Source: Pseudomonas helmanticensis
GTDB taxonomy: Bacteria > Pseudomonadota > Gammaproteobacteria > Pseudomonadales > Pseudomonadaceae
NCBI RefSeq assembly: GCF_900182985.1
Contig: NZ_FXUY01000001.1
Span: 3,410,001 to 3,474,000, forward strand
Direction: 5' to 3'
DNA: 64,000 nucleotides
Made by a program: the position numbers and the translations under genes. Below the pieces are notes generated by a model that was given only the letters and a program-made list of their open reading frames with translations, was not told the origin of the DNA and searched no databases. Positions 11,645-33,105 of the stretch are shown piece by piece (the stretch's first letter is position 1; each line of letters begins with the position of its first letter).

Positions 11645-12033
11645 GGGGCCGTTTAGGATTCGACGCCGGTTGCGAAACTCTAGGTGCATGCCGACTTGGT
11701 AACAGAAGTCGTAAATCCACTGTTGCAACTACTTATAGTTGCCAATGACGACCAATACGGTGTTGCTCTCGCTGCTTAATTGCAGCTGACAATGCTCCTG
11801 GTACCTTCGGGTCCAGCAATCATCAGGGGATGTCTGTAAACCCAAAATGATTGTCATATAGAACAGAATCGCCGTGCAGTACGTTGTGGACGAAGCGGCT
11901 AAAACTTACACAACTCGCCCAAAGCACCCTGCCCTTCGGGTCGCTGAGGGTTAACTTAATAGAAACGGCTACGCATGTAGTACCGACAGCGGAGTACTGG
12001 CGGACGGGGGTTCAAATCCCCCCGGCTCCACCA
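11645..12033 (+). ncRNA. ssrA: Transfer-messenger RNA (tmRNA, SsrA)
   Basis: The RNA begins GGGGCCGTTTAGGATTCGAC and ends with the tRNA-like acceptor, T-arm and CCA: GGTTCAAATCC...CGGCTCCACCA. The 5' GGGGCCG pairs with the 3' CGGCTCC. The tag reading frame starts at GCC (11741) and stops at TAA (11777-11779), encoding ANDDQYGVALAA, which has the family ending ALAA. tmRNA with SmpB rescues stalled ribosomes and tags incomplete proteins for proteolysis. The 3' end is the attachment site of the island that follows; the gene is intact, so the island restores it. Confidence 0.97.
12010..12033 (+). repeat. attL core: 3' end of ssrA
   Basis: The T-arm and acceptor end of ssrA directly precede a tyrosine integrase gene in the usual orientation, so this segment is the island's left attachment core. 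A decayed copy is seen at 33665-33687. Confidence 0.65.
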
Positions 12034-12044
12034 CTTCAACATCT

Positions 12045-12071
12045 AAAGACGTCCACGGACGTCTTTTTTTG
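12045..12071 (+). terminator. Terminator now used by ssrA, supplied by the island
   Basis: AAAGACGTCC-AC-GGACGTCTTT is a perfect 10-bp inverted repeat followed by further Ts. It lies 12 bp after the tmRNA CCA end and within the presumed island, so it replaces the chromosomal terminator that now sits at 33696-33726. Confidence 0.75.
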
Positions 12072-12145
12072 TGCCTGAAATCCAGCAAAATCAAGGCTTT
12101 AGCGTCTATTAGCGTCCATGGGCGTCCGACACAATCCACGTAACC

Positions 12146-12197
12146 TGGTATTCCAGATGGTATTCCAAGCCCTTCAGTGGTAATTTTTGGAATACCA
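12146..12197. repeat. Left arm-type sites: TGGTATTCCA x2 direct plus one inverted
   Basis: TGGTATTCCA occurs at 12146-12155 and 12158-12167, a 12-bp period. The reverse complement TGGAATACCA occurs at 12188-12197, just before the integrase gene. Paired copies with the same 12-bp period recur at the other island end (33592-33612), which is how arm-binding sites of tyrosine integrases are arranged. Confidence 0.6.
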
Positions 12198-12218
12198 ATT
12201 GATGTCATGGAACACCTC

Positions 12219-13490
12219 ATGTGCGCCCAAGCCACCCGCCTCTCTGACCGCCAGCTCAAAGCGGTAAAGCCAAAAGACAAGGACTACGTCCTCAGCGATG
12301 GAGACGGCTTACAGCTGCGCGTGAGGGTCAATGGCTCTACGCTATGGAACTTCAACTACCGGCAGCCGATTACCAAAAACCGCATCAATATGGGCCTCGG
12401 CACCTACCCAGAGCTCTCGCTCGCCCAAGCCAGGAAGAAAACTGTCGAAGCCAGAGAGCGTCTCGCTCAGGGCATCGACCCGAAAGAACAACGTAGCGAG
12501 CTGGAGCAGACAAAAAGACAGGCAACCGAGCACACATTCGAGAACGTGGCGTCTGCCTGGTTTGAACTGAAAAAGGATTCTGTGACTCAAGCTTATGCCG
12601 AGGACATCTGGCGCTCGCTCACACTGCATGTCTTTCCATCGCTGGGAACAACACCTATCTCGCAGATCAATGCCCCGAGGGTCATCGAGCTGCTGCGCCC
12701 TTTGGAAACCAAAGGCAGCCTGGAGACAGTGAAGCGACTGACCCAACGACTCAACGAGATCATGACCTACGGTGTGAATTCGGGAATGATCTTTGCCAAT
12801 CCGCTCAGCGGCATTCGGGCCGTTTTCAAGAAGCCGAAAAAGCAGAACATGGCAGCCCTCCGCCCCGAAGAGCTGCCAGAGTTAATGGTCGCCATCGCCA
12901 ATGCGAGCATAAAGAGAACAACCCGCTGCCTGATCGAATGGCAACTCCACACCATGACCCGCCCTGCGGAAGCCGCCACGACGTCCTGGGCTGACATCGA
13001 CCTCGACAAGAAAACCTGGACGATCCCAGCGGAGCGCATGAAGAAGCGACGCGCTCACGTCATACCGCTGACCGAACACACACTTGCTCTGCTTGAGACG
13101 ATCAAACCCTATAGCGGCCACAGAGAGTATGTATTCCCTGCTGATCGAGACCCGCGAACCCACTGCAATAGCCAGACAGCAAACATGGCCCTAAAACGCA
13201 TGGGCTTTGAAGGTCGATTGGTAAGCCAAGGAATGCGCTCCATGGCCAGTACCATCTTGAACGAACAGGGATGGGATTCGGAGCTGATTGAAGTCGCACT
13301 TGCGCACGTGGACAAAGACGAGGTACGCAGCGCCTACAATCGTGCAGATTACATTGAGAGAAGACGTCCCATGATGATCTGGTGGAGTGAACACATCCAG
13401 CAAGCCGCCACTGGAAGCTTGTCAGTTTCAGCCATTCAGGGACGCAGAGTAAGCGTCCGGGCAACACACCTTCCTGACGCCGTCGCTTGA
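12219..13490 (+). CDS. Tyrosine site-specific integrase (P4-type, DUF4102 N-terminus)
   Basis: About 423 residues if started at the ATG at 12219 (GGAA 8 bases before it; ATGs at 12207 and 12177 are in frame upstream). The N-terminal arm-binding domain reads LSDGDGLQLRVRVNGSTLW...MGLGTYPELSLAQARKK. The C-terminal catalytic domain has the active-site Arg in HTMTRPAEAA, the RxxH/W-region His in ALAHVD and the nucleophile Tyr in AYNRADY. The HxxR box reads QGMR, so its His is replaced by Gln. It is expected to recombine the island at ssrA. Because the other catalytic residues are present I treat it as a probable functional enzyme. Confidence 0.92.
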   Translation: MCAQATRLSDRQLKAVKPKDKDYVLSDGDGLQLRVRVNGSTLWNFNYRQPITKNRINMGLGTYPELSLAQARKKTVEARERLAQGIDPKEQRSELEQTKRQATEHTFENVASAWFELKKDSVTQAYAEDIWRSLTLHVFPSLGTTPISQINAPRVIELLRPLETKGSLETVKRLTQRLNEIMTYGVNSGMIFANPLSGIRAVFKKPKKQNMAALRPEELPELMVAIANASIKRTTRCLIEWQLHTMTRPAEAATTSWADIDLDKKTWTIPAERMKKRRAHVIPLTEHTLALLETIKPYSGHREYVFPADRDPRTHCNSQTANMALKRMGFEGRLVSQGMRSMASTILNEQGWDSELIEVALAHVDKDEVRSAYNRADYIERRRPMMIWWSEHIQQAATGSLSVSAIQGRRVSVRATHLPDAVA

Positions 13491-13619: not shown

Positions 13620-14921
13620 TCATTCCCAAGCACACGAGCGTATCTGCATAGGGGATGAATCTCGCTGTGCAAGCGGCTCTTCCTCCATATCAAACTTGAC
13701 TCCTTTTACAGCGTGCCTACTTAGACTATCAGGTACGTACTCTATCCCGGGCACGCTTGAGGACTTGGGCCCAAGGACAAAACCGCGATCCTTTTTGATT
13801 ACGATTGTGGAGGTAGCAGCGCATGCCACATGAGAGAACAATACAATATTGTGACCTCCTTCATTCTGCACGGACTTGAAGATGACTCCGTCAAATCGAG
13901 GGTCATACTGGGTGGCAAGGTACTCTGCGACGACCTGGGTGATCAGGTAGTTCTTCTCGAAACCTGGGAGAACAGGCACGGTGATTTCGTTGTGTAAATC
14001 TCGCAGAAACTCCTGACGACCCGATTTTTCGAAATATTGAGGATCGAAAAAACTGGGCCGCTGCCCCAAATCAGCTTTCTCAAAACGACCGAAGTCCAGC
14101 AACCGCACTTCACGCGTCAGTCGAAACTCGCCGCTGATGACAGTACCACCCACCGGGGGACGCAGCTCAGCCACACATGTTTCGCGCTCGAATGCGCCGT
14201 AAAATGCAGAAACGCCAGCGGGGTTCATCCGACCTTCGCCAGATTTTTCTTTGGGCGGGGCCGCAAGATTGGAGGCAGGATCCCGACTGATCGACTCGAC
14301 AGCATCAGACGTGGTGCACGAGCGGGCCCGATAGTTAGGCGGTGCGTCCTTTGGAGTGAGTATCCGCACCACCGAGTCATCGCGCGATGAGCAGGAATAG
14401 CCGTCTAGACCTTCGAAGAGCCAGCCTAAAAATTTCTTTGCGCTGTCGTTGAAGTAGCGATTGCCGTGCCTTACACCATCCCCGAATTCATGCCACTGCC
14501 TTTCCACGGCATACGGTAAAAAAGGCATCCGGATATAGGACGTATCCCTACTATAGGATTGGCCATCGAAATTATCACAGACTGCCTGGACAATGGGTTC
14601 GATATTGTCGCAGCCAAATATTTCGCTGACCCAATACTCTACGTCGTCTCCCTGCTGACCGTGACGTAGCTCGTTACCGCTCCAGTAACGATGATGCTCC
14701 CCCTCACAAATGTATTTGCCTAGGACAGCCTCCACTTGGCCTGTCACTTGGGCTAGCGGGATGCATTTGCGCGTTACGCCACACAAGCTGCAAGGAGCGG
14801 AGACCCCGCTGCGTTTGATGCGCCTCTCCAGGTACGGTTCTATGACGCATCTAAAGCAAACTACTTTCTTCACGACCATGGCAAACGACTCAGTCCTTTG
14901 AAGGATATCTGATGGATACAT
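13620..14921 (-). CDS. RES-domain protein with N-terminal zinc-binding HEPN/RES-type domain
   Basis: About 433 residues from the ATG at 14919-14921 (MYPSDILQ...; an alternative in-frame ATG is at 14877-14879). Residues ~20-60 carry two CxxC pairs (CFRCVIEP..., CSLCG) as in the domain that precedes some RES proteins. The C-terminal ~190 residues look like a RES fold: RMNPAGVSAFYGAFERETCV then AELRPPVGG, and later YDPRFDGVIFKSVQNEGGHN with IVLF. RES proteins of toxin-antitoxin loci (MbcT, RES-Xre) consume NAD+. No Xre antitoxin gene is adjacent. It lies 200 bp after the Rad50-like gene on the same strand and may be its last operon member. Family call moderately sure; activity is inference. Confidence 0.65.
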   Translation of the reverse strand: MYPSDILQRTESFAMVVKKVVCFRCVIEPYLERRIKRSGVSAPCSLCGVTRKCIPLAQVTGQVEAVLGKYICEGEHHRYWSGNELRHGQQGDDVEYWVSEIFGCDNIEPIVQAVCDNFDGQSYSRDTSYIRMPFLPYAVERQWHEFGDGVRHGNRYFNDSAKKFLGWLFEGLDGYSCSSRDDSVVRILTPKDAPPNYRARSCTTSDAVESISRDPASNLAAPPKEKSGEGRMNPAGVSAFYGAFERETCVAELRPPVGGTVISGEFRLTREVRLLDFGRFEKADLGQRPSFFDPQYFEKSGRQEFLRDLHNEITVPVLPGFEKNYLITQVVAEYLATQYDPRFDGVIFKSVQNEGGHNIVLFSHVACAATSTIVIKKDRGFVLGPKSSSVPGIEYVPDSLSRHAVKGVKFDMEEEPLAQRDSSPMQIRSCAWE

Positions 14922-15121
14922 TATGTGGCTTCGTTCAAAGCTCTGGACGCTAAGGGCATAAAAAAATACACATACCTGGGCTGAGCAACCTGAGCCGACA
15001 GTGCGCAGAGCCGAGACGTTTCTAACCAAGCGGCAGCTCAATGACCGCCAACGCTTCGGCCGCTACCGCCCCGATATACCTTCTTCTCTATGTTCCGTGT
15101 TACCTGGTACGGCTTTCCTTT

Positions 15122-18100
15122 TCAACTACGGAAGAGTCTGTGATCCGCTGAGTTGTCGTTATGCTGGACGGCTTGTCGCATCCTGTAGCCCTGAAGGATT
15201 TCCGACGCTGCAGTGTTGTTTCGAACCTCATACGAGACACCACCTGGAGCGGCCGAAATTAGCTGTACCACTGTGCAAGGCAACCCAGCAGCACTAAATT
15301 TTCTTTCAACAAATTCGGTTTCAGCTCGATCGTGACTCGACATTAGGACTTGGTAGCCCTCCAACTCAACGAGGTTGCGCATCACGTCCGTGAATGCAGC
15401 AGAGTGAATCACATCGTTGTGTTGCAAGGGATCATCCAGAAGGAGCGCACGCCACCTCGACCACGGATAAGAGACACTTGCACTACACAGTATGCTGAAA
15501 CCGTTGGCAGCTAACTGCCCCTCGCTCAAGATGAGTTGGGGATTAAGATTCCGGACTTCGGGAGTGCCGCCATCCTGCGTACGACGACGAATACGTGCGC
15601 TAAACTCGGTTCGGTCGGCAAAGTAGTCCGCGTTAAAAAACACCGATGTCCCGGGACTGGTGAGAAGAGCATCGTTGAAGGCGCCGATTAATTCGTTTAA
15701 TGGGCGCAGGAACTGATCCGAAAAGGAGTCAGCCTCATCTTGCAGCCGTTCAGCAAGACGGCGGATCGCCTCATGTGCTGCTTGAATTCGGGCGGCCTGA
15801 GACCGGGAGGCCGTAACCGCAGCCTCAATGGCAACACGATTCGTCTCGACCGACCCAGAGCCAATCTGTGCCGCAACCATCCCGCGCAAGTTATCCAACT
15901 CTTCCTGACCGGTTGTGTTCTCCAGTGCCGCGACCAATCGCTGCCGCTCTGACTCGATTGCGTTGAGGTCAAATCGCCGACTGCCGAGTTCTGCTAGCTT
16001 GTGCTCGAAGACTGCTTGAGCTGGTGGTGGCAATAACCCGTGCGACGACCACATGCTGGTCAATTCTGTAATCTGTTTCTCAAATCCGGTCCAAGCCTGC
16101 TCGTGCTCGGCCAAGGCCGCACTCAGTCGCATATCCTCTGCTTTCGATGCGGATAGTACTTGGAGCTCGACAACATGTAAGCCATGCGCAGATTTCTGCG
16201 CAGCATCGATCTCATCGATGTCTGCCTGAACCTTGGCTAGCAATGCGGGAACGCTTTCAGGGCTAAGCCCCTCCTCTCCCCCCCTTACTTGGAAGCGCCG
16301 CTCGGATCCCGCCAGGTCAGAGATCGCACGAGCTATTTCAGTGCGTAGTTCAGCAACATCTGCTTCTAACTGTTGCAGCCGCTCATGGCACTGGTTTCGC
16401 TTACGCTGCATCTCTACCGCCCCTACTTCCATCGAGGCAAGTGCCCGCCGCGCAGCGTCGAGCCGAGCTTCCCGCTCACCTAACCGGGCATTAGCCACCG
16501 CAGCGATATCGCTCGCCGGGTCCATAAGTTCCAGGCGAGCAAACAGTTCGTTTCGTAGGGTATCTAGAGCAGTTTGCGCATTATCAACTTCCTGTGTCGC
16601 ATCATCTATTTCGGCTATGGCACTGAAGGCTGCAGCTCTTTGGTTCTGAGCGAACTCCAACTCCACCTGCGCCTCATCAAGACGTGCTTGCGCGACTGGG
16701 AGCCCCTCGTCCGCTTCCTTAGCTGAAAGCTCGACGAGTTTTTTGAGTTCGCCAACAGCGAAGTGCGATTTGCAAAGAGGGCAATTGGTGTCGTGGTCGC
16801 CAAGATGCGCAGAAATTGTCGCCAGCGCGCTTGAGATAGCCCCGGCGCGCTCACGACGCTCTTCAAGTTCGAGGCGCCTACTCTCTACGAGAGAGCTGGC
16901 AGCCGCCTCCAACTCTGCATACTCTGATTCAGAAAGTTCAGGTTCATCGTTAACCGCACGATCTTGTTGCAACAACGCATCCGAAAGTCGATCTTCTAAT
17001 ACAGACAGCTTGGTCGACTCTACAACCAGTGCTAGCGCTGCAGAATGGCGCTCCTCGGCAACAGCAAGAGCGGCACGCGTACTCTGCAACGCCGCAAGTT
17101 CATCGTCAGCCTTTGAGCATTCCAAACGAAGCTCAGTAATAGAGGCTTCAATTGCCGAATTTTTTTCAACAAGCGCAACCCGCCGTCGACCTGCTTCAGA
17201 AGCTTCGTCTAGGTCGGTCTGAGCGCCTAGAAGAGTCGCCATACGTTCTCTCAAGCGCTGACCCCGCTTGGAGATCTCGCGCCAATTTCTATCCAGATTC
17301 TCGACCGATACCTCACGCGCCGTAAGCGCTTCCTCGCTCTCAATCTTTGCAGCACGCAGTGCTACGAGCGAAGCGCTCGCAGCGGACTGTCGACTCGACA
17401 AATTGGAATGCTGCTCTGGAATACGAGCGAGTTGCATGAGGCGGCTTTCCGCGACCTCCATGGCTTTATTCGCGTCGACAATCCGAGTCCGAAGCTCCGT
17501 AAGGTACTGCTCCAGATCAGCCGGGGAATGAGCCACCGCTCTATCTGTCACAAGCGAGAGCCGTCGATTAAGATCCTCAGCTCCACGGATGATTTGATCC
17601 CGAGGAATAGCACCGGCCGCTTCAGCCTTTCCTTCCTGACGTCGTAGCCGTTCGATTAGCGCATCCCAATGGGCGAGGCGGTCCTCGTGTCGGTTCAACT
17701 CCAGCGCAGCGGCTTCGGCCTTTCGTTTCAGGGCTAGCGTTGCTGAGCGGCCGCGCAGTCGCTTGCGTATGTGCTCTAGCCGCTCGACTCCGGAAGGAAC
17801 ACGAAGGGCGTTCCACTGCTCGGGAGCCTCTCTCGACATGAATCGCTGTTGTGACCCTTGTCCCAAGAAATGAGTGAGTGCCAAGTAGGTGGAAAGATTA
17901 TCCACCTGCTGTCCCCAACCAGGACTGACGAGGAGACTTTTCAAGTCTGGATCTGAAGTTCCACTAGGTCCATTGGGATTACCTTCACGCTCGACCTGAT
18001 GACCATCGGAGAAACTCAGACTGACAGCGTGCGAGAACTGTTCCGCACCCTCTCTCGTCAGATAATCAGCCTCGGTGTTACCTCTGCTGAGATACCGTTC

Positions 18101-18274
18101 GAAGTGCTTTACCTCTGACGTCAACCCCCACTCAATCGCGTCGAAGAAGGAGCTTTTTCCTAACCCGTTCGGCCCGGTGATAATGACGAGGCCGGGAACG
18201 CCCGCAAGCTCAAGATCGAAACTCCCAAATGTGCGGAAGTTGCGAAGTTGGATACGTTGAAGATAGAGGCTCAC
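15122..18274 (-). CDS. Rad50/SMC-like AAA ATPase with zinc hook
   Basis: 1050 residues. The start MSLYLQRIQLRNFRTFGSFD leads to a Walker A at residues 34-41 (GPNGLGKSS). Two long coiled-coil stretches flank a central CPLC at about residue 497, a Rad50-type zinc hook. The C-terminus has an ABC signature (LILSEGQLAANG, ~913) and Walker B (LLLDDPLQHND, ~943). Such ATPases bridge DNA and control partner effectors. The ATG overlaps the stop of the 224-aa gene (ATGA), so it is translated from the same mRNA as that gene and the FAD protein. It is not SbcC: no SbcD nuclease is adjacent, and the partners are different. Intact. Confidence 0.85.
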   Translation of the reverse strand: MSLYLQRIQLRNFRTFGSFDLELAGVPGLVIITGPNGLGKSSFFDAIEWGLTSEVKHFERYLSRGNTEADYLTREGAEQFSHAVSLSFSDGHQVEREGNPNGPSGTSDPDLKSLLVSPGWGQQVDNLSTYLALTHFLGQGSQQRFMSREAPEQWNALRVPSGVERLEHIRKRLRGRSATLALKRKAEAAALELNRHEDRLAHWDALIERLRRQEGKAEAAGAIPRDQIIRGAEDLNRRLSLVTDRAVAHSPADLEQYLTELRTRIVDANKAMEVAESRLMQLARIPEQHSNLSSRQSAASASLVALRAAKIESEEALTAREVSVENLDRNWREISKRGQRLRERMATLLGAQTDLDEASEAGRRRVALVEKNSAIEASITELRLECSKADDELAALQSTRAALAVAEERHSAALALVVESTKLSVLEDRLSDALLQQDRAVNDEPELSESEYAELEAAASSLVESRRLELEERRERAGAISSALATISAHLGDHDTNCPLCKSHFAVGELKKLVELSAKEADEGLPVAQARLDEAQVELEFAQNQRAAAFSAIAEIDDATQEVDNAQTALDTLRNELFARLELMDPASDIAAVANARLGEREARLDAARRALASMEVGAVEMQRKRNQCHERLQQLEADVAELRTEIARAISDLAGSERRFQVRGGEEGLSPESVPALLAKVQADIDEIDAAQKSAHGLHVVELQVLSASKAEDMRLSAALAEHEQAWTGFEKQITELTSMWSSHGLLPPPAQAVFEHKLAELGSRRFDLNAIESERQRLVAALENTTGQEELDNLRGMVAAQIGSGSVETNRVAIEAAVTASRSQAARIQAAHEAIRRLAERLQDEADSFSDQFLRPLNELIGAFNDALLTSPGTSVFFNADYFADRTEFSARIRRRTQDGGTPEVRNLNPQLILSEGQLAANGFSILCSASVSYPWSRWRALLLDDPLQHNDVIHSAAFTDVMRNLVELEGYQVLMSSHDRAETEFVERKFSAAGLPCTVVQLISAAPGGVSYEVRNNTAASEILQGYRMRQAVQHNDNSADHRLFRS

Positions 18275-18945
18275 GGTGTTACCTCCGACCAGGCGTCTAC
18301 GAGTGCATCCATAAGTTCAGCTCCATCTGCCAAATCAGAGTCAGCCAGTTCAAACCAACGATCAACCACGGACTGCTCTATTCCTAGCTCAGCCGCGACG
18401 TCAATAAGCGCGCTCAATCGGTCTAATGGAGCCGCAGGCTGCGGTGGTAAAGCTTCCCAAGGGCGAGCCAAAAACGTACGAGCTATAAAACCAGCGAATG
18501 CCTCATTACGCTCGTCTAAGTTCTCGGGCGGCAACCACACAAGCTTTCTAGCAACACGGTCATCGCGCTCAATCGCCAAGGCGAGCGCTCGCCATTCTGG
18601 ATCATCCTCACTGCCGTCCGGCCCCACGAGCCAAAGCTGCAGGTCCAGAACCTGCCCTGGGGGCAAGTGGGAGCGAGCAACCACACCCTGATTACGATAT
18701 CGACGGACACCATCACGAACCAACGCAACATCGGGCGAGATAGGCAGACGACCGAACAAGATCGGAAAGCGGCCTATGGTTACGGTGGCGATATCGACAG
18801 GTAGATGCGAGCCCCTCAGCACGTCCTCGCCAGTACCACCGCGAAAATCCGCCGACGCCAACTCATTTCGGACCACTGCCTCAAGATCTAATGCTCCTGC
18901 AGCGGAAATTACACGCGACACAAAGTCGCTCAACAGTTCGCTCAT
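18271..18945 (-). CDS. Unknown 224-aa protein, middle gene of FAD-ATPase operon
   Basis: 224 residues. No family recognised. The N-terminal third is mixed (SELLSDFVSRVISAAGALDL, VDIATVTIGRFPILFGRL). There is a WRALALAIERDD segment and an acidic helical C-terminus. Its start overlaps the stop of the upstream FAD gene, and its stop overlaps the start of the Rad50-like gene. It is therefore probably made in fixed ratio with both. By analogy with ABC-linked conflict systems it might be the small adaptor between the ATPase and an effector, but this is inference from position and size only. Confidence 0.75.
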   Translation of the reverse strand: MSELLSDFVSRVISAAGALDLEAVVRNELASADFRGGTGEDVLRGSHLPVDIATVTIGRFPILFGRLPISPDVALVRDGVRRYRNQGVVARSHLPPGQVLDLQLWLVGPDGSEDDPEWRALALAIERDDRVARKLVWLPPENLDERNEAFAGFIARTFLARPWEALPPQPAAPLDRLSALIDVAAELGIEQSVVDRWFELADSDLADGAELMDALVDAWSEVTP

Positions 18946-21401
18946 GCTTGCACTTCCCCTGTGTCAATCTGGTCTTGCCACTGTTGGCGCAACCGAGCCT
19001 CAGTGGCGGCAATATGAGCAACGACCGCTTGCCTGCCGATGCCCAATGCTCTCTGAAAACTGGCATCGACACCAACGATCACATTGCATGGAGTAGGTGG
19101 TGCGTCCATCCTCATATCTCCCAGTCCAGCATCTGACAAGGATAGTTGGCCGGCTTGCTCAAAACTTGCTGGAGCATTCAGCTCTGAAAGCAGGACAAAG
19201 GATGTCTGCCAGGCATGAAGAGTCGCCATTAATGTGATGCTCCGACCTTCGATTAGGTCTGCACCAGAGGCATAGATGGTGGATATTTCTGTACCATCCT
19301 CAGCACGGTTGTCGAAATTACCTGGCGCCACACTCCGGGGAGATGAGTTGGGCCAAGCCTCAGCAGTGGCAAGCGCAAGAGTAATTGTTCGAATGATGTT
19401 CGCCATTCTTAGCGGGCCCACCAAAACCTGTCGATCGGTGTTGTCGCCGTCGTCCTCCATAGTACATGCCGCCAACCGGAGTAGCCTGCCAAGCAAGGCC
19501 AAATCGGCTCGTAGGCGAATCCGCCAGGCAGTCCACCTCCGAGCCATTTCGGATCGTAAAATGGGCTCAATCCTCCACGTTACCCAGTTCGCTGCTTCGC
19601 TACCTGTCGTGAGGTAAGTCATCAGATGTTCATCGACTTGATCAAGCGTCCAAATGTCCATACCTGCATGTAGTTCGGCCGCGACCACATCAGCATTGAT
19701 GATGGCTGACTGCATTTGCGCAGCAACTGCTGTCCCTATGATCGGAGACGGTAACGAATGAGCATGTGGTGATCTTTGCGTCAGCGAGGTTAACCATTCG
19801 TTCCAGCAGCGTTCGTCAGTCTCCATACGAACCTGCCGGGCATGAATAACAAGCCTGGCGACTGCACCGCCTAAGCTCCCAAGATCGGTCGGCTTGGCCC
19901 CACACTCGAGGTTTAATGCACGATCGGCGTTTCCCCACCAGCCCAACAAATCAATTGGACGAATACCGCCAGACCAAACGATCGAAGGTGGTATATCGGC
20001 GAGACCGATCCGCACCCGCTGCGGCTGTAGTTGCACCGCAGCGGCAAGCAGATGACGCGAGACCGGAAAGTTAGCGGCAGCAAGCCCATGATCAAGCTCT
20101 TGAGCCGCGCTAGGAGTTAGATGAGGTGGGGAGTGACGCTTCGAATCAGCAGCTAACCAGCTCACATGATTTGCTTCATAGGCGGCGCGAATATCCTCGA
20201 AAGGCCTAAACGCCTCTAACTTGGCCGCACCATGCCGTATAAACAACTCATCGACCCTGAGATCTGTTCCAGAAACAGAATAGAAGCCCTGGCGGGCAAT
20301 GTCCGCTGAAATCGCACCTGCTAGATGCCTAATCGGTAAGCCAGCATCATCCGCAGCGGTGAACAGTAAATAGACCAGTAGACGGTTGAGTGCTGAAGTT
20401 GGTTGCACCAACAACTCATCCCGCTGAGTATTGAAGATGATATTTACCCGATTACGGAGACGACCTGCGATTTCGCCAATCAGACCATCATCGCGTAACC
20501 GCGGGCCTATGAATCGATCGTACGCAGTGAGGAAATCGAAGCCCATTCCGAACTGCTCTGCTTCAAGATCAATTTGCAATAATTCATCAGAGATTTCTTC
20601 AATGCCCGGCCACGTTGTCACCAGTTCGATTAAGGCCGTGTGATCAAAATCTTGAAGCGCTGCAGCGCAAAGATCGATTAGCCCTCCATCCCCGGCTCCT
20701 GAAACGAGAATGGTTGTTTCGCGATCTGCATATCGCGGTGCCCCAGGGACACCTCGGTCAGACCAATATGAGTTCCAAGGCGCATTACCAAGCTGACGCT
20801 CTCTACCAAAACCAATTGCAATGAACACAGCGCCATAGCTTGCAGCTGATAGGTCATCACCCCTTACAGATTGGTGCCGAACTCGATAGGCGACCGTGCC
20901 GATGCGTTCGATGGCGGTGACTTCTCGCAGCACCTTGATGGGTAGCGCATTCGGCCGATGCGCCTGGAGGGTTCCGAACTGACGCATAACCTCGGCAGCG
21001 ACTGAATCTGCAGTACCTGCGCTCCAATTGAGGAAGGGCAGGCCTGCACTCCGAACAAGAGCACCTTGTCGAGGCCATTCATAAATATGGGGATGAAGGT
21101 TGCGCTGTACGCAACCTCGTTGCAGATGTAGGGCATGCTCTTCGCGTTCGAACACGTCCACGTGACAATCTGGCTTCAGGATCGACAGCCCCGCGGCAAC
21201 AGATAATCCCGCGGCCCCCGCGCCGATTACAGCAAATCTTCTCTTGTCCCGCAGTATCCCATTAGCAACCAGAGCACTTGCCAGGTTGAAGCCTCGGACT
21301 TGCTGTGAATAGAACGTAATGCGGCTGTCGTACGACCCTATCACATAGATCGATGGCCAACCTGGTACCTCCGCACCATTGATCGAGTCCAATTCGTTCA
21401 T
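18942..21401 (-). CDS. FAD/NAD(P)-binding oxidoreductase-like protein with large C-terminal extension
   Basis: 819 residues. After ~55 residues (PSIYVIGSYDSRITFYSQQV) comes a dinucleotide-binding Rossmann motif, FAVIGAGAAGLSVAAGL (residues ~57-73), followed by VDVFERE, the acidic end of the second strand expected for FAD binding. A second GxGxxG-like site, ILVSGAGDGGLIDL, lies near residue 235. The last ~350 residues are helical and match nothing I know. It is the first gene of the three-gene overlapping operon with the 224-aa protein and the Rad50-like ATPase. The role could be a redox or nucleotide-sensing effector. The FAD fold is clear; function unknown. Confidence 0.8.
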   Translation of the reverse strand: MNELDSINGAEVPGWPSIYVIGSYDSRITFYSQQVRGFNLASALVANGILRDKRRFAVIGAGAAGLSVAAGLSILKPDCHVDVFEREEHALHLQRGCVQRNLHPHIYEWPRQGALVRSAGLPFLNWSAGTADSVAAEVMRQFGTLQAHRPNALPIKVLREVTAIERIGTVAYRVRHQSVRGDDLSAASYGAVFIAIGFGRERQLGNAPWNSYWSDRGVPGAPRYADRETTILVSGAGDGGLIDLCAAALQDFDHTALIELVTTWPGIEEISDELLQIDLEAEQFGMGFDFLTAYDRFIGPRLRDDGLIGEIAGRLRNRVNIIFNTQRDELLVQPTSALNRLLVYLLFTAADDAGLPIRHLAGAISADIARQGFYSVSGTDLRVDELFIRHGAAKLEAFRPFEDIRAAYEANHVSWLAADSKRHSPPHLTPSAAQELDHGLAAANFPVSRHLLAAAVQLQPQRVRIGLADIPPSIVWSGGIRPIDLLGWWGNADRALNLECGAKPTDLGSLGGAVARLVIHARQVRMETDERCWNEWLTSLTQRSPHAHSLPSPIIGTAVAAQMQSAIINADVVAAELHAGMDIWTLDQVDEHLMTYLTTGSEAANWVTWRIEPILRSEMARRWTAWRIRLRADLALLGRLLRLAACTMEDDGDNTDRQVLVGPLRMANIIRTITLALATAEAWPNSSPRSVAPGNFDNRAEDGTEISTIYASGADLIEGRSITLMATLHAWQTSFVLLSELNAPASFEQAGQLSLSDAGLGDMRMDAPPTPCNVIVGVDASFQRALGIGRQAVVAHIAATEARLRQQWQDQIDTGEVQA

Positions 21402-23333: not shown

Positions 23334-23440
23334 GGTCGCGGTAGGGATGGCAGCTACCTGCCACCCCCCGCACAGATCCGTACGTGCGGAACTACCGCAT
23401 ACGGCTCCTGCCTCGGGTGCGTGACGCGAAGCGATCTTCA
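23334..23440 (-). mobile_element. 3'-terminal scrap of a group II intron
   Basis: On the minus strand the bases read GAGCCGTATGCGG...CCGCACGTACGGATCTGTGC and then GGGGGG. This is the hairpin typical of the region after the reverse-transcriptase frame in bacterial group II introns. It is followed by CCCTACCGCGACC, resembling an intron 3' end. No reverse transcriptase frame remains. It interrupts the tail of the HNH pseudogene. 23441-23611 shows nothing else identifiable. Confidence 0.5.
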
Positions 23441-23611: not shown

Positions 23612-25594
23612 TTAAGTCCAGGAAGCTGGGATCAGACCATCACCCTTGACGCTCCAATTCTCTACGGAGTGGGTGAGTGGGATGTCTTTCCAGATCTCCT
23701 TGCCAGCGTGTTCCAGAACAATGATCTGGAGGTGGGACTTTGAACGCGTGAGCCCCTGGGACAGGACGTTGAAAATGCGCTGTGTCGCGATCACATCTGT
23801 AGGACGTTTTCTCTTGAGCTCCTGAACATCCTCGTCAAGGCTGTTGTCTCCGCTGTGGCTGCTTGGGAAATACACCTGGCTTGGCTGGTCGATCACCAAG
23901 AAGCTGAAGGGCGGCAACTGTTTGTTCTCGTCAAGCGACAGGTACTCGTGGATCGCGAGGAAGGCTGCAATGTGATAGCCCATCCAGTTGGCGCCGCTAC
24001 CTACCTCCCACAGGTAATCTTTCCGGTTCCCATGGCTGTCAAAGCGGAGCGTCAACTCCTTTCTGTCGAGCTTGATTTGTGATCCCTCGGGTGCTTCGAG
24101 ACCTCCGAAGGCATCGGCGTAGTCCCCTATCAACTCTCCAATCGTATAGTCGACCCTGCGTTCTTGCTCGGTGCGATCTGTCAGGCTCAGGGTGTTGTCG
24201 AAACCCCGGATGATCCTATCCAGTTCTTTTAGACGCGCGAGGATATTGGCATCAGCGGAAGTTGAGCCGATGCGCTTGAGCAGTCCTGAGATATCACCGG
24301 CGAGAAAGTAGATCTGACCAATCGCGTTTTTCAGCTTTTCATCCCTGTTCAGAATTTCATTTTTTTCAGTACGCAGCTTGGAGAGCGTTTTTTCCTCTGC
24401 GGAGAGTTTGCGTTTGAGGCTGGAGAGACGGTTGTCGACTACCGGGTTTTCCTGCAGTACATCCGATATCTGAGTGATCTTGTTGACCTTTGCCTCAAGC
24501 TTGTCGATGACAGCGGGAAGAACTGAAGTGGTCGAGCCGCACGCCACACACTCACCCTTGGACTGAACGTTCTTTTTAAGCCACTCAAGCCCAATTACGT
24601 GGGATTTTTCAGTGTCGATCGCATCAATGAATTTCTTGCTACTTTGCGAAAGGCTGCTGTAGCCGCTGATGTCGGTAGCGAGGTTTTCCACGATTTCCTG
24701 CTGAGCGACCTCCTTGGCCAACGCGGCCTCGAACGTTTGGTTAACGTGCAGGCGATGGGGTTGTAGGAGCGTATGTTCGAGCCTTTTCTCGTTATAGGCA
24801 TCGACCACAGACTGCAGTTGAGCAATTTTCCCCTCAATGGATGCGGGCATTTGGGCGGGCAGCAAACCGATTTCGATGCAGCTGTGCAGCATCCTGTTCA
24901 CTTCGTAATGCCAGTTGTTTTTTGTTCGCTCAATAACGGCAAGCTCCTTCTGGAGGGCCTCCCTTTCCTTGGCTGCTTCCTCACGTCGACGCTCGGTCAT
25001 GACGTAGTCTGCATTCACGATGCCAAGAGCGTAAGGCATCGCTCGCGTAAGGCGCTCCTTGTGCGTCCAGGAGTCAGTTTTGAAGAACAGAGTGTTTGGG
25101 TTGGCGACGATGTGCTGTGGAAGATAGTTAAAGGCAGCCATGTCCCGGAACGAGCTCCTGCTGTCCAGTTGAGAAGGTTTGTCTTCATCCGAATGTGGCA
25201 GGTCGCTCATCCTGACCAGACCGTTGAATTTGTCCTTGAAAGCAGTCACGTTCAAGTTGCAAGGCAAGATTTCTGGCAGCACTCCGGTGAATGGGGCGAG
25301 GTAGTAATCGCTGGATGTTTGTTTTGCCCCTGGCGTTCTTCTCGCGACTATCCAGGTTTCGTTGCGAATAGTGATTTTCAGTCCAAACCATTCGACCTTG
25401 TTCCGGATGAAGCCGATCGGGATCTGGCACTTACTTGAGCCGAGCGCGTAGTCGATGATGTGGACAATTGATGACTTACCGGTGCCGCTCAGGCCATGAA
25501 TGATGTTGATCTTGCCGGGCACGAATTCGATTTCCCGGATGGGATTCGTCTGGTTCTGTGGCCACAGCAGTACGGCATTAATCTCGAATTTCAT
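23612..25594 (-). CDS. ABC-three-component (ABC-3C) system ATPase, DUF3732 type
   Basis: 660 residues. Walker A HGLSGTGKSS sits at residues 33-42 after the typical IREIEFVPGKINII strand. A long coiled coil is broken by a CVACG at about residue 348, and the C-terminal half has ABC-like elements (EVGSGANWMGYHIA, FLVIDQPSQVYFP as Walker B ~566). This is the layout of the SMC-like ATPase of ABC-3C conflict systems, where ATPase, middle component and effector are encoded together. It is the third gene of the operon and overlaps the middle-component gene by 17 bp. Complete and in frame. Confidence 0.85.
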   Translation of the reverse strand: MKFEINAVLLWPQNQTNPIREIEFVPGKINIIHGLSGTGKSSIVHIIDYALGSSKCQIPIGFIRNKVEWFGLKITIRNETWIVARRTPGAKQTSSDYYLAPFTGVLPEILPCNLNVTAFKDKFNGLVRMSDLPHSDEDKPSQLDSRSSFRDMAAFNYLPQHIVANPNTLFFKTDSWTHKERLTRAMPYALGIVNADYVMTERRREEAAKEREALQKELAVIERTKNNWHYEVNRMLHSCIEIGLLPAQMPASIEGKIAQLQSVVDAYNEKRLEHTLLQPHRLHVNQTFEAALAKEVAQQEIVENLATDISGYSSLSQSSKKFIDAIDTEKSHVIGLEWLKKNVQSKGECVACGSTTSVLPAVIDKLEAKVNKITQISDVLQENPVVDNRLSSLKRKLSAEEKTLSKLRTEKNEILNRDEKLKNAIGQIYFLAGDISGLLKRIGSTSADANILARLKELDRIIRGFDNTLSLTDRTEQERRVDYTIGELIGDYADAFGGLEAPEGSQIKLDRKELTLRFDSHGNRKDYLWEVGSGANWMGYHIAAFLAIHEYLSLDENKQLPPFSFLVIDQPSQVYFPSSHSGDNSLDEDVQELKRKRPTDVIATQRIFNVLSQGLTRSKSHLQIIVLEHAGKEIWKDIPLTHSVENWSVKGDGLIPASWT

Positions 25595-26081
25595 TGGGAA
25601 TCCCGAACAACAGCTTATAGATTTGGGGTGTAGAGACGCTGGCTAGCCAGCTGGATAGCTGCTTGGTGGTTTTGAGCATCTCAGCGGGTATCGACGCTTT
25701 GGTGCCGTTCGGCCATCGGATGACGAGACTGGTAAACACATCCCCGTCTTCACTTGGCTCCTTCTCTACCAGTTTGGCTGCGACTGCCAGGTTCAGCCCC
25801 TGCAAGGTTGAGGCGGTGTATTCCTGAACACGACGTTCCAGATCAATCTTCAGAATCGGGGTGTCACGAAGGACGTTGTCTATGGCCGAGCTAGTGTTTC
25901 GCTTGGAGAGGGCAGCACTGCTCGCCGGGTTCCAAACGATAGGAAGCACCAGCAAAAGTTTGGGGAGATCGATAGGATGATCGTTCCCTGAAGATTCATA
26001 TTCCGATATGAAGTAAGCGAGCAAAAAGCAGGCGAGTGAGCTGTTGTGGATCAGGTGTCGATCCATATAGGGGGCGCTCAT
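25578..26081 (-). CDS. ABC-3C system middle component
   Basis: 167 residues, mostly helical, beginning MSAPYMDRHLIHNSSLACFL. The pattern NSSLACFLLAYFISEY...LLLVLPIVWNP is that of the small middle component encoded between effector and ATPase in ABC-3C operons. It probably bridges the two. Its ATG overlaps the stop of the upstream effector gene (ATGA), and it overlaps the ATPase gene by 17 bp. Confidence 0.75.
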   Translation of the reverse strand: MSAPYMDRHLIHNSSLACFLLAYFISEYESSGNDHPIDLPKLLLVLPIVWNPASSAALSKRNTSSAIDNVLRDTPILKIDLERRVQEYTASTLQGLNLAVAAKLVEKEPSEDGDVFTSLVIRWPNGTKASIPAEMLKTTKQLSSWLASVSTPQIYKLLFGIPNEIRD

Positions 26082-27268
26082 TCATCACTCTCGTTAGCTG
26101 TATGCCAATGAATCGGGTGATCCGTGTCGACTCCATTTGCCTGATGGTGGTAGGTGCCCATGAACAAATAACGGAAGTTTGATTTGACGCGACCGATGCT
26201 CAGGGAAAAGCTTGGCGGGGTCGATGTCTGCAGGTAGATCGCCTTGAAGTCATCCTCTCCAAATTCTTCAGGTTCTTTGCCTGACCTAATGCAATGCGCG
26301 TCGCAATTCGCCTTCCACCTGTCACTCAATTCGGACTCAACCTCACACAGGTCGCTGGGCAGGATCCGGTTGGCTTTCAGCAGTCGAGTACGCTCGGAGT
26401 AAGCGGCCCAATAGTGGCCCAGCTCGGTCTGGATAGGCCTTTGCGGAATATTTATTTTTTTAAGCTGATCTATGAACGACAGCCCCAGTGATCCGTATTC
26501 TTCGATCAACTGTACAAAGTTAGTCTGCTCTTGAGTCAGCGGTCTCCAGGCTTCCTCAAAGAACGCTTCAAAAAGCATGTGTTTTCGGGTGAAGAACGGC
26601 TTTGAGGTTGTCCAGAAGGGGATACCTTGTTTCCACGAGGCTTGGCAGTCAGCGAACAGTTGACCCAAAAGACTTTGATAAATAGTTTCGTGGCAATGTT
26701 CCAGCCCGTCTGGAAACTGAAGGGCAGTGTAGATCGCCTCCTTGAGCGTCTCGTCATCCATTGCGTCGGCAACGTGGAAGCGGGTGATGACGAAGGCGAG
26801 GTCTTCATCACTGAAGCCGGTCGCCTCTGCGGCTATTTCTGCGACCGAGCCGGACATTCCACTGGCATGCTGACGCAAAGACTTGATTGCCTCGGCGACC
26901 GATGTAGGAGTGGTGGCCTTGGAAAGAGTGCTGATTAACGTTCCATCGGGCACTGTGCGGTTTGTCACCAGTACAAACTCAAGAGAGGCGAATTCACTTT
27001 TTGCCGCCGCGAGTCCTTTGAGCCAGTTTCGAAGGGTGTTCCAGACGTTCTTACTGCTGTCCTGGAGTGAATGATTCTCGCCGGTGGTCAGCTTGTCCTG
27101 TTCCAGAATGACTTTTGTCCCACTGGAGAGCGGTATCTGCTCTTCGACGTCGTCAGCTGTTTCAATGCCAAAGCGCGTCTCTGTGTGAGTGCTATGAAAA
27201 ATCCTGTGTAGCACTCGTTCATACTGGTAGCCGAAGCCCGCTGCGCTTGCGCTCGCGTTGCTATTCAT
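26078..27268 (-). CDS. ABC-3C system effector with Cap4-like dsDNA nuclease domain
   Basis: 396 residues from the ATG at 27266-27268 (AAGGAACG just before it; an upstream in-frame ATG at 27293-27295 is less likely). The N-terminus SASAAGFGYQYERVLHRIF, then TETRFGIETADDVEE, VILEQDKLTTGENHSLQDSS and FVLVTNR fit the PD-(D/E)xK-like Cap4/DUF4297 nuclease domain (GFxYQ, E/D ... QxK-like pattern). The C-terminal half is helical, as in ABC-3C-specific C-terminal domains. First gene of the operon. Predicted role: cutting DNA when the ATPase senses infection or foreign DNA (family-based inference). Confidence 0.72.
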   Translation of the reverse strand: MNSNASASAAGFGYQYERVLHRIFHSTHTETRFGIETADDVEEQIPLSSGTKVILEQDKLTTGENHSLQDSSKNVWNTLRNWLKGLAAAKSEFASLEFVLVTNRTVPDGTLISTLSKATTPTSVAEAIKSLRQHASGMSGSVAEIAAEATGFSDEDLAFVITRFHVADAMDDETLKEAIYTALQFPDGLEHCHETIYQSLLGQLFADCQASWKQGIPFWTTSKPFFTRKHMLFEAFFEEAWRPLTQEQTNFVQLIEEYGSLGLSFIDQLKKINIPQRPIQTELGHYWAAYSERTRLLKANRILPSDLCEVESELSDRWKANCDAHCIRSGKEPEEFGEDDFKAIYLQTSTPPSFSLSIGRVKSNFRYLFMGTYHHQANGVDTDHPIHWHTANESDE

Positions 27269-27778
27269 CGTTCCTTCTCTTGACGTTGTTCGCATTTAGC
27301 GAGATCGATGGCGCAGGATCGAAAGAGGATCCAATCCGCAGGGGCAATGAATTTACCTGCAATGATGTCGGGTGGCTACTACTGGCTCCGTGCTGCCCGA
27401 GGGGGGGCCGGGGTGGGGCAAGCGGCCCGATCACCCGTACACTCCCTTGGTCAGTGACGCTGCCAATGGAATGCTAGACGCGTTGCTTCCACCGGCCCGT
27501 GAGCTGAACCTAAATCCATGGCGCGCCGGCGTCGCTTTGAGAATAAATTGCCTACCCATGATGTCCGCTTGCCGGCATCCATGACGTGGGAATATTATCC
27601 AGCCGATTGCCCCACCTTCTAAGTTGCGGATCCGAGTGCGGGCTGACCGCACAGCGGCGCGCGTTCCGGCGCTGACAAATTGAGCGTGTCGAGGAAAAGG
27701 CGCATCCACTTGAGCTGGTCGCCTGAGGAGATGCGTTCGATTTCGCCATTGCTGTCTTTGTCGGACTTAAGCTTTTGT
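27269..27778. other. Gene-free stretch with probable coding relic
   Basis: About 510 bp upstream of the ABC-3C operon and after the PLD gene. One minus-strand frame (about 27625-27775) reads protein-like without a start: KSDKDSNGEIERISSGDQLK then WMRLFLDTLNLSAPERAP. It may be the tail of a lost gene. The rest is G-rich low-complexity sequence (a run of Gs at 27401-27419) with no gene I can support. Confidence 0.4.
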
Positions 27779-29662: not shown

Positions 29663-31033
29663 CTACTTAAACAACTCAGATCGCTTAACGACGTAGCCCA
29701 CAGGCTTCTTTTGCTTTTCGATAACACCCTCTTCAACGAGGCGCTGAAGCCATGCTTTTGCCTGCCCATTTGTCACATCTAATGCAGCAGCAATATCAGC
29801 ATCTTTTGTCGGGGTTATCAGTAGTTTTTTAATCAGATCTCTTACCGTCGCAAAAAGTAAATCAGCGTGATCCACTTGTACCCCAGGGAAGGAGTCCATT
29901 ATTTCAGACACAACTTTCAGCGTCGGTTCAACAGCATCTCTGCTGACACTAGTACTTATAGGAAGTAGAGGTTCACAAGACGCTTCTAGCGACCTCTGCG
30001 ACTCTGTCATTGGCTCAGATACCGACAAGCTCTCTATTTCATCAGCGGACGATAATGAGAGTTCTGGTTGCTGAGGCACGTCTGTGCTAGAAACCTTGAT
30101 CGCGAATATTTGGTTAAAGGCTTCGGCATCCGGAGGATTCGGCCAAAGTATCGCCCCCCGATTACCCAAAGCATCAAGGCCGGCAGAGGGCTCACCCGTC
30201 GATCGAACAAATACAGGCACATACTGGAGCTTATCCAACTGCTCCACAGCACCAGCCCATGTCCCGCCTTTGTTATGGTCCGTGTTAACGACCAAGGATG
30301 CATCGGCCAGCGCATAAATGAGTTTATTACGCTGCATAGCATGACCAACGTTGAAGCCGGCATTAGGATCATAAGCAGAAACGAGAACTAAGTTTCCATC
30401 ACGCAAGGAATTCCTTTCCTCACGACTCATGGCAGTTCGCTCTAAGTTTTCCGCTAGAACACCAATAACCTTGCCACCCGACTGCAATGCACCCCGCATT
30501 GCAGCCAGATCAACCCCCCTGGCCCCTCCCGATATAAGTGTTCTGTTAGCACAAGCTGCCAGCCCGCCGATGGACATGGTGTAGTCGACCAATGCATCGT
30601 CGATTTTCCTCGACCCGACGACAGCGAGCCCACCCGATTCAAGCAGCGAAATATCTCCACACCCGTAGAGCACTGCTGGCGCATCAGCACGAAGACGAGC
30701 TTTAAGACGTCGCGGATACTCAGGGTCAGCTCGACTAATGACCCAGATAGCCCGCGTCTGCCATCGCTCGACTACCTGGCTCAACAAGAAGCCCCGTCCC
30801 AGCAGCCGTTGTAGTCGACTTTCATCAGCTATTGGCCGACATAAACGAAGGATCTCAGTGGATTCCGCGGTAAGAAGATCGGCAGGTTGTTTTTGGATCT
30901 GATGTAAATGACTAGCTAAACGCTTGTATTCGGCAGGCGATAGTAGGTCTGGCGTTTGTACGCCACGTCCAACAATTAGCGGTGCCGTAAGCAACAGTAT
31001 CGCCTGCGTATTGGGTGAAAGAGGTGACATCAT
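29663..31033 (-). CDS. DprA-like (SMF) Rossmann-fold protein
   Basis: 456 residues. The DprA core is clear: [26 protein letters not shown] (138-143), [19 protein letters not shown] (164-182), [20 protein letters not shown] and [20 protein letters not shown]. It has a C-terminal winged-helix-like tail ([20 protein letters not shown]). Chromosomal DprA loads RecA on incoming ssDNA. DprA homologues in conflict operons pair with phosphoribosyltransferase proteins; in ShosTA the DprA-like partner is the antitoxin. Its start overlaps the stop of the RecQ-PRTase gene (ATGA). The long ~100-residue stretch before the C-terminus is low-complexity ([17 protein letters not shown]). Confidence 0.87.
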
Positions 31034-33105
31034 TCATCGTGGCCAGTTAGTGAAAGGGCCATAGGCCAAACCTCATCGCAACCGGCTTCTCGTAACAGCC
31101 AAGCTGCGACAGTTAGAGTCCATCGAGAGTTGACGATGTCGTCAACCAAGAGCACCGGTCCCGCGTGAATTATCTGATCGATTTTAAGCGACCCATCAAT
31201 GTTGCGGGCCTGCTGAGTAGAATTTGCCATGGTTTTTTGCTCTGGCCTGTCCTCCGTCTTCGCGAGGACATTGTAAAAGGGTAGACCTAACGCACTGGCT
31301 AGCCTTTTTGCAAAATTGGGTACGATCTCTGGATGCTTCAGAGACGGAATCGCAGCAACCCATTCTGGAGCGGGATTTGGCCTCCAGTTTTTAATCATTT
31401 CGACACATGCCTGAACAAGCTCATCGGAAAAATAGCCGTCAAGATATCTATTATCTCGCACAATGCTGCCCCAACCGGCGTCTCCCCATACACAAAGAGC
31501 CTTACCGGGCTGGGCTTGACGATTGGCCGGAATCAGCCCCCTTACGCCATATAGCGGCATTCCGCCATCAGGCCACTTTTTGCGAGGTTCGATGGGAAGA
31601 CTCGTACGCCGCAGGAAGGCGACCGCAGCTTTGACCAGGCCAAGATTCACTGCACTGGGCAATGGAGGTAAAGCTGGCTTCTTGACCGTACCAGGGACTC
31701 CGTCCAGTGCATCAATCAAAAACGCCATATGCTGGCCGAATGGTAACCCGACATAGTCCCTCATCTGTTGGTGTTCGCCCTGTCGCAGCGAGGTCAGCCG
31801 CTCTGCGCGATCCCAAAAGCTTTGATTAAGGTTTGCCGCGGTAAGTTGCCACTTAGCACCTTGTTTAGCGATAGGTGCTGGCGCCTCCAGTGAAAGCAAC
31901 GCCACAGTTTTTTCGACCCGGCCCTTACTCAGATTGACTTTGCTGAGCAGCTCCGGAACAGATAAGCCATCAGGTGCATCTTCAAGCGCACCTAGAACCT
32001 CCGCGACCTCCTCTTGCGTCGGGAAAGCGCTACGGATAAACCAATCGGTGATTTCAGTCTCCTCCTCACCACTGAGTAGCACACCGTAGGCAGCATCCAA
32101 CGCACGCCCCGCACGACCTACTTGCTGGTAGTAGGCGACCACGGAACCTGGCATTTGATAATGGATCACAAACGCTAGATCGGGCTTGTCATAACCCATG
32201 CCCAACGCCTGTGTGGCGACAAGAGCCTTGACCTCATTGTTAGACAGGGCTAGCTCAAATTCCTCCCGACGATCACCAGTCTGCCCTGTATAGGCTTCGA
32301 CGTTAAAGCCTTGAGATTTCAACCATCCCGCTACTAGAAGGGCATCTCGCACGGTCAATGTGTAAATGATGCCGTGCCCATCCAATGCGGCCAACCTTTC
32401 AGCAAGCCATGCAAGACGCTCTTCTTGGCGAGGAAGACGGATGGTTTGTAACGAAAGCGATGCACGATTGAGATCTCCACAAACAACCTCAATGTTGGGA
32501 CCAAGCACCGCCTTTAAGTCATCCATAACCCGATTGTTTGCCGTAGCGGTGGTAGCAAGCAAACGAAGGTTGGGAGGCATAATTTTGACCATCCGCTCCA
32601 GCAATCGATAGTGTGGGCGGAAGTCGTGCCCCCAATCGGAGATGCAATGCGCCTCATCGATAACTAGCAGGGAGATTTGTGCAGCGATCAGCGCCAAAAC
32701 CTGGGTACGGAAACGATCATTAGCGAGGCGTTCGGGCGATATCAGGAGGATATCAATGCCACCGGCAATAAGCTGGCGTTCAATCGCAGCCCAATCTTCC
32801 CTGTTGTCTGAGTTAATCGTGGCCGCTCGGACACCCATTCGCTCTGCCGCTACAACCTGATTTCGCATCAAAGCCAGCAATGGCGAGATCAGTAACGCAG
32901 GTCCAGCGCCAGCCTCCCTTAGCAGCTTCGTAGCAATGAAATATACGAAGCTCTTACCCCAGCCGGTTTTCTGAACGACTAACAAGCGTTCCTTACCCTC
33001 AACGATGTGGCGTATAGCTTCTTCTTGGCCATCCCGGAAGGTAGCATCGAGTCGTCCCGAACCTAAACGCAGGAGCTCCAAAGCACGCGCTGCATTATAT
33101 TCCAT
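31030..33105 (-). CDS. RecQ-like helicase fused to phosphoribosyltransferase-like domain
   Basis: About 691 residues from the ATG at 33103-33105, preceded by GGAGAG (an ATG five codons upstream is possible). Superfamily 2 motifs: [14 protein letters not shown] (Walker A), [20 protein letters not shown] (DEAH and RecQ aromatic loop), [41 protein letters not shown]. There is no recognisable RQC/HRDC end. Instead the C-terminus carries a PRTase-type PRPP loop, [20 protein letters not shown] (~650). The DprA-like gene overlaps its 3' end. Helicase activity is well supported; PRTase activity and a toxin role are inference. Confidence 0.87.

Follow-up and report, generated by a model that had tools for sequence, protein, structure and literature searches.

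The Pseudomonas helmanticensis genome carries, in a 64,000-nucleotide stretch of contig NZ_FXUY01000001.1 (positions 3,410,001 to 3,474,000; this whole stretch is called the window below), three overlapping genes, the first of which encodes a protein predicted to bind flavin adenine dinucleotide (FAD). To which kind of system do these genes belong, and what does the flavoprotein do? The overall best explanation, to which we assign a probability of about 0.72, is a Lamassu type II operon near an ssrA integrase, with the released flavoprotein LmuA acting as a redox effector. The features of the operon are as follows (positions in the window; aa, amino acids).

18942..21401, minus strand: lmuA, gene of the 819-aa putative effector (PADLOC PDLC03858, 900 bits, residues 1-816)
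LmuA residues ~10-430: predicted flavoprotein (two-dinucleotide-binding) half (fold matches of the predicted model over 52-438)
LmuA residues 474-793: CTD2 docking domain (Pfam CTD2, 130.6 bits)
18942..18945, minus strand: stop/start overlap of lmuA and lmuC, ATGA
18271..18945, minus strand: lmuC, gene of the 224-aa middle component (PADLOC PDLC03876, 250 bits, residues 2-222; Pfam MComp1, 32.8 bits, cut-off 27.3)
18271..18274, minus strand: stop/start overlap of lmuC and lmuB, GTGA
15122..18274, minus strand: lmuB, gene of the 1050-aa SMC/Rad50-like ATPase with zinc hook, the presumed DNA sensor (PADLOC PDLC03868, 1061 bits, residues 2-1034; Pfam AAA_23)

Identity of the operon

All three proteins are matched nearly end to end by the PADLOC models for LmuA, LmuC and LmuB. 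Pfam adds the marks of ABC-3C systems, namely CTD2 in LmuA, MComp1 (above its cut-off) in LmuC and AAA_23 in LmuB. Because of these near full-length matches and domains, the trio is, as judged from its sequence, almost certainly a Lamassu type II / ABC-3C operon that is complete and whose LmuA is of the flavoprotein type. It has the hooked SMC-like LmuB, the small LmuC, the LmuA with CTD2 and the conserved A-C-B order of such operons. Homology searches brought up several relatives whose public name is 'ABC-three component system protein'. According to the accessible part of a review, the Lamassu superfamily takes in ABC-3C and DdmABC and has many LmuA effectors, among which a 'double-Rossmann dehydrogenase domain' is already listed (PMC10586767).

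An original prediction, made from the letters of the window, had placed four open reading frames (ORFs) of 819, 224 and 1050 aa and a RES-domain gene on one strand; all four lie on the minus strand where it had put them. Its ATGA junctions hold for lmuA and lmuC, while the overlap of lmuC with lmuB, whose start codon is GTG, reads GTGA. The zinc hook of the 1050-aa protein is present as CPLC. A consensus scan upstream of lmuA revealed no sigma-70-like promoter (2 sites in the region against a mean of 5.6 in shuffles).

The Walker A motif, the SEGQ signature and the DDP Walker B motif are kept in 39 aligned LmuB proteins, as is the CPxC hook (39/39). Membership of LmuB in the Rad50-Mre11 family was rejected: the best Rad50 model reached 37.3 bits against a cut-off of 700, and the operon partners are LmuA and LmuC.

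Conservation and distribution

Scanning genomes with 28 aligned LmuA-type proteins as query yielded 78 loci, or 79 with that of the window. As lmuA, lmuC and lmuB lie on one strand in the same order in 40 of the 79, and the 4-bp lmuA/lmuC overlap is kept in 29 of the 41 loci with LmuC, the arrangement is more than chance. Other lmuA/lmuC spacings run from -280 to 2832 bp and come from mechanical start choice or insertion. Among the remaining loci, one has LmuC without LmuB at a contig end, two have LmuB only and 36 have neither; in locus L027 the FAD part is spread over more than one ORF. The trios occur in Alpha-, Beta- and Gammaproteobacteria (13 of 40 in Rhizobiaceae); they are not 40 independent events, some being near copies (L039, L040 and L078 in the tree).

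Plasmids carry 28 LmuA records, all below 60% identity, of which 23 come from Rhizobium or Sinorhizobium, 21 are predicted to be conjugative and 10 cover at least 80% of LmuA. LmuA had no match in the phage collection, and LmuC used alone as query found no relative in the genome contig scan.

The flavoprotein half of LmuA

Over residues 52-438, the predicted LmuA model has a two-dinucleotide-binding fold according to Foldseek and VIA-align; the folds named here are those that the two programs list for this range, where the absence of other families is uninformative. The structural matches include flavin-containing monooxygenases (FMOs) and N-hydroxylases. A comparison of 181 flavoprotein domains showed GDG[GA] in every one and W109-P110, W126, GFGxE, YW212-213 and QQxR in 97-100%. 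By motif, two established flavoprotein classes were rejected as homes for the protein. The FMO fingerprint FxGxxxHxxx[YFW] is found in 0/181 FAD halves, that of the window included, which speaks against membership in the FMOs (class B), whose two-dinucleotide-binding fold is present. The redox CxxC of thioredoxin and disulfide reductases occurs in 2/181 only, and the window protein is not one of the two.

We consider it very probable that the FAD half is the effector. As to its activity, an NAD(P)H oxidase is the simplest reading, since a fold suited to NAD(P)H (reduced nicotinamide adenine dinucleotide (phosphate)) and FAD comes without redox cysteines or FMO fingerprint; we put this forward tentatively, at somewhat less than even odds. 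Slightly more doubtful, and still a serious competitor, is a true monooxygenase or other flavin oxidoreductase modifying one specific cell or phage molecule. The FMOs and N-hydroxylases among the structural matches point in that direction, and the invariant or nearly invariant motifs suggest that the active site is a dedicated one and not that of a generic oxidase. Against this reading stand the fingerprint missing from all 181 domains and the fact that no substrate pocket was identified.

The flavoprotein module in other proteins

Of the 36 loci that lack both lmuC and lmuB, 28 had their FAD proteins scanned with Pfam. NACHT or NB-ARC domains were found in five (L002, L041, L045, L047 and L053), and Roc-COR with LRR repeats, the FAD half being C-terminal, in two (L054 and L062, of which L062 is truncated where its contig begins). 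One further protein has TIR and Mrr (L073), another, at the end of its contig, has CTD2 (L035), and 19 have dinucleotide-binding-type matches only or none, among them L003 (1790 aa) with a P-loop at 531. The Roc-COR proteins are located as follows.

L054:7808-11278, Verrucomicrobia: LRR-Roc-COR protein with LmuA-type FAD half
L062:2-3208, Verrucomicrobia: LRR-Roc-COR protein with LmuA-type FAD half

A tree of 104 domains places L002/P0016, the NACHT fusion, inside the Lamassu branch. When P0059, P0060 and P0084 are labelled Lamassu-type by their Pfam CTD2 and the cut-short rows L026, P0015 and P0087 are excluded, the Lamassu label requires 4 changes over the remaining 101 rows; on the tree as drawn, we read these as possibly one basal change and three changes within the branch (L002/P0016, L003 and P0028). 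A careful tree of 25 rows puts L002/P0016 beside P0012 with support of 97/96 and does not settle the placement of L003 and P0028. For the 25-row tree, a topology that keeps the 13 nearby CTD2-bearing rows in one group was rejected by the approximately unbiased (AU) test (p-AU 0.000278), a p value weakened by the choice of this group after the 104-domain tree had been seen. P0016 all but repeats L002, with 1296 of the last 1300 residues the same, and stems from another assembly, whose longest contig has 5342 bases; this supports the NACHT fusion as real, and the two may come from the same organism.

We read the pattern as an effector shared between different sensors, with the FAD half as a putative interchangeable effector module. 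Going further, the half may be a portable redox-effector domain of bacterial immunity (QQxR...GxGxxG...WP...GFGxE...YW...GxGDGG), exchanged among Lamassu, NACHT/NB-ARC, Roc-COR (LRRK2-like) and TIR-Mrr proteins and an undescribed FAD operon, with a shared abortive mechanism, oxidative or draining NAD(P)H, parallel to the oxidative burst; this generalisation is speculative, and we would sooner doubt than assert it. The portable flavoprotein half, found in unrelated receptor-like proteins, is the part that merits follow-up: if it acts in redox chemistry as an effector, a single study of the enzyme would account for part of Lamassu together with several NLR-like and Roc-COR proteins.

At six loci (L065, L067, L069, L070, L132 and L133) the FAD gene is followed by genes for a 271-390-aa and then a 767-894-aa protein, an arrangement to which we could assign no name. 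Neither protein belongs to a Pfam family at cut-off in the five of six loci scanned. By eye, most of the larger proteins start with a YxxDxN stretch, and a PIN-like reading of it is a guess.

The modular pattern has a practical consequence. PDLC03858 matched the FAD half of all nine proteins tested (L002, L003, L041, L044, L054, L061, L069, L071 and L073), at whose loci no lmuC or lmuB was found. False Lamassu calls are thus possible, since the FAD half alone is enough for the model to match fusions with NACHT, NB-ARC and Roc-COR (L002, L041 and L054), and a lone PADLOC LmuA match is no proof of Lamassu.

Proposed mechanism

By analogy with studied Lamassu and DdmABC systems, LmuB and LmuC would hold LmuA inactive and would sense unusual phage or plasmid DNA such as ends, hairpins or replication intermediates, upon which LmuA would be released and self-assemble. 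The accessible text of one review describes that activation liberates LmuA, which forms a homo-tetramer and so activates the Cap4 nuclease (PMC12409362), and that of a further paper describes activation of fused Lamassu effectors by oligomerisation (PMC12799240). By analogy, release and assembly may activate the flavoprotein half too. In the least certain step, the released half would reduce its FAD with NAD(P)H and hand the electrons to oxygen. NAD(P)H would be drained and peroxide made, and the cell would be stopped or killed before the phage matures.

An improbable alternative is that the FAD half is a non-catalytic NAD(H)/redox sensor which gates the complex and leaves killing to another protein such as the RES protein. 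The RES gene adjoins on the same strand, and its product has a complete-looking stretch of the R..Y..E motif typical of RES domains. Yet the FAD half is the part common to Lamassu and STAND proteins, as effectors are, and RES is without a link to lmu genes elsewhere. The N-terminus of LmuA is, moreover, taken as an enzyme in described systems, according to the accessible part of the review (PMC10586767).

Several points weigh against an active LmuA redox effector. The LmuA model has a predicted TM-score (pTM) of 0.59 with low confidence at 748-765 and 815-819, and the query-normalised TM-scores are just 0.16-0.25 among the matches listed; binding of FAD and NAD(P) is a prediction from sequence and model, as are, by sequence and analogy, the defence function, expression and activity of the operon. 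SMC proteins usually have a catalytic glutamate at the second acidic position of Walker B. All 39 LmuB proteins have an aspartate at this position, and ATP hydrolysis may be weak because D replaces the catalytic E. LmuB is likewise described as putatively defective in ATP hydrolysis in the part of the review available to us (PMC10586767). Full-length LmuA of the flavoprotein type is also rare: it occurs in 3 of 398 genomes of the phylum, its own included, the other two having contigs as long as those of L034 and L078 (six match in all, three of them over just ~250-350 positions), and in 1 of 249 genomes of the genus, namely its own, beside one further partial match (residues 5-254). The 36 of 79 FAD-half loci without nearby lmuC and lmuB, some of them cut by contig ends, count here as well, as the module may serve something other than defence in those that are uncut, and so does the post hoc choice of the group in the AU test. 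Finally, the open-licence literature, as far as its text was accessible, does not describe an activity of a flavoprotein LmuA; the primary Lamassu papers lie outside that scope and may hold a test.

The RES neighbour and the island

Directly downstream of lmuB lies the RES-domain gene.

13620-15041, minus strand: RES-domain ORF as listed; the likely gene is 13620..14879, 419 aa

Pfam assigns the product to RES (63.3 bits); HEPN_RES_NTD1 scores 22.1 bits, under its cut-off of 27.4, so that the N-terminus is HEPN/RES-NTD1-like, and zinc-ribbon-like CxxC pairs are visible by eye. PADLOC gave no match for this protein. The listed ORF is over-long. Because alignments with the closest relatives in the genus begin at residues 57-67 and P0105, which is 98% identical, has 419 aa, the start is likely Met55 at 14879, 242 bp past the lmuB stop. 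A RES-Xre toxin-antitoxin pair was rejected, as no Xre antitoxin gene is adjacent and the adjoining genes are the integrase and lmuB.

The original prediction had the RES gene right as a same-strand follower of the operon; as a component of the system it found no support in relatives. That RES is a fourth, accessory Lamassu component is very unlikely, its position directly downstream on the same strand being set against the 242-bp gap left by a Met55 start. Only one of the 79 LmuA-type loci (L002) has a RES match, a weak one (23 bits) on the opposite strand, in a set where the window's own locus (L001) stops short of RES and some loci are truncated. RES relatives, some distant, occur in 31 of the 249 genus genomes, as opposed to full-length LmuA in its own genome only, and on 778 plasmid records, all below 60% identity. 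No homologue of lmuA, lmuC or lmuB lies near the 12 closest same-genus RES relatives (~3-10 kb on each side, ORFs of at least 90 aa), nor in the 1.5-kb flanks of 29 other RES loci. RES is probably separate cargo of the island and not part of the Lamassu system.

The neighbours of RES genes recur only in small sets, namely L118/L119/L120/L122 and L123/L127/L128, with L124 sharing one gene; by eye, the genes common to L123, L127 and L128 look like Mu-type prophage genes.

The Lamassu operon is carried near a tyrosine integrase at ssrA, a gene whose prediction was correct (11645-12033). The far end of the island was not placed because the 24-base ssrA 3' end has no second exact copy in the genome; the window holds no exact copy of at least 14 bases of that stretch. 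Other features of the window are the following.

11645-13490, plus strand: ssrA directly followed by the tyrosine integrase (PRK09692)
23335-23409, minus strand: group II intron fragment (RF00029, 41 bits)
23612-25594, minus strand: second Lamassu-type LmuB (PDLC03859, 367 bits)
26078-27295, minus strand: second Lamassu-type LmuA (PDLC03848, 140 bits)
29663-31033 and 31030-33120, minus strand: PsyrTA defence pair, PsyrA (455 bits) and PsyrT (900 bits)
54678-54764, plus strand: C4 antisense RNA (RF01695, 77 bits), which we take to be a mark of P1/P4-like phage elements

The nearby module first described as ABC-3C is the second Lamassu-type pair, and the one described as DprA/RecQ is presumably PsyrTA.

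Comparison with known systems

The original prediction was borne out in seeing one operon that couples an SMC-like sensor to a dinucleotide-binding protein, and defence is very likely. Its claim that no named system has such a composition is contradicted by the profile-database check that it had itself proposed: none of the three proteins exceeds any NCBIfam cut-off, but the PADLOC models for LmuA, LmuC and LmuB, which match over almost the whole length, and the ABC-3C domains in Pfam refute the novelty in name and composition and leave an unnamed, uncharacterised defence system with a negligible probability. The system is of an already named kind and is not new; its very likely role in defence was correctly sensed.

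The closest counterpart is Lamassu type II with a flavoprotein LmuA (PDLC03858, PDLC03876 and PDLC03868), alike in all three proteins, gene order and overlap. Its DefenseFinder label is presumably 'Lamassu-FMO', a name not found in the literature searched. With 0/181 domains bearing the FMO fingerprint, the nickname is not borne out. A literature search on Lamassu-FMO, or on Lamassu combined with FMO or monooxygenase, returned no description of a flavoprotein effector in the accessible texts and two papers with chance 'FMO' matches only; the main text of PMC7159879 does not mention FAD, flavin, monooxygenase or oxidoreductase.

LmuA shares the two-dinucleotide-binding fold over residues 52-438 with the flavoproteins YpdA, thioredoxin reductase and FMO. 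Unlike these, it has no FMO fingerprint and, as in 179 of the 181 domains, no CxxC, and its family has motifs of its own (QQxR, WP, GFGxE, YW and GxGDGG). DdmABC of Vibrio cholerae, a Lamassu type II system with a Cap4 nuclease LmuA, likewise combines genes for an effector, a small protein and an SMC-like ATPase, as far as the accessible part of the source describes it (PMC12409362); here the effector is a predicted flavoprotein instead, and neither Pfam nor PADLOC finds a nuclease domain in LmuA. The STAND/NLR-like proteins of Methylobacterium gregans (L002), Archangium (L041, L045 and L047) and Sorangium (L053) have the same FAD module as LmuA, with 62% identity between L002 and residues 3-449 of the window protein. 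In place of CTD2, LmuC and LmuB, none of which was found with them, they carry a NACHT or NB-ARC NTPase, some with TPR or HEAT repeats.

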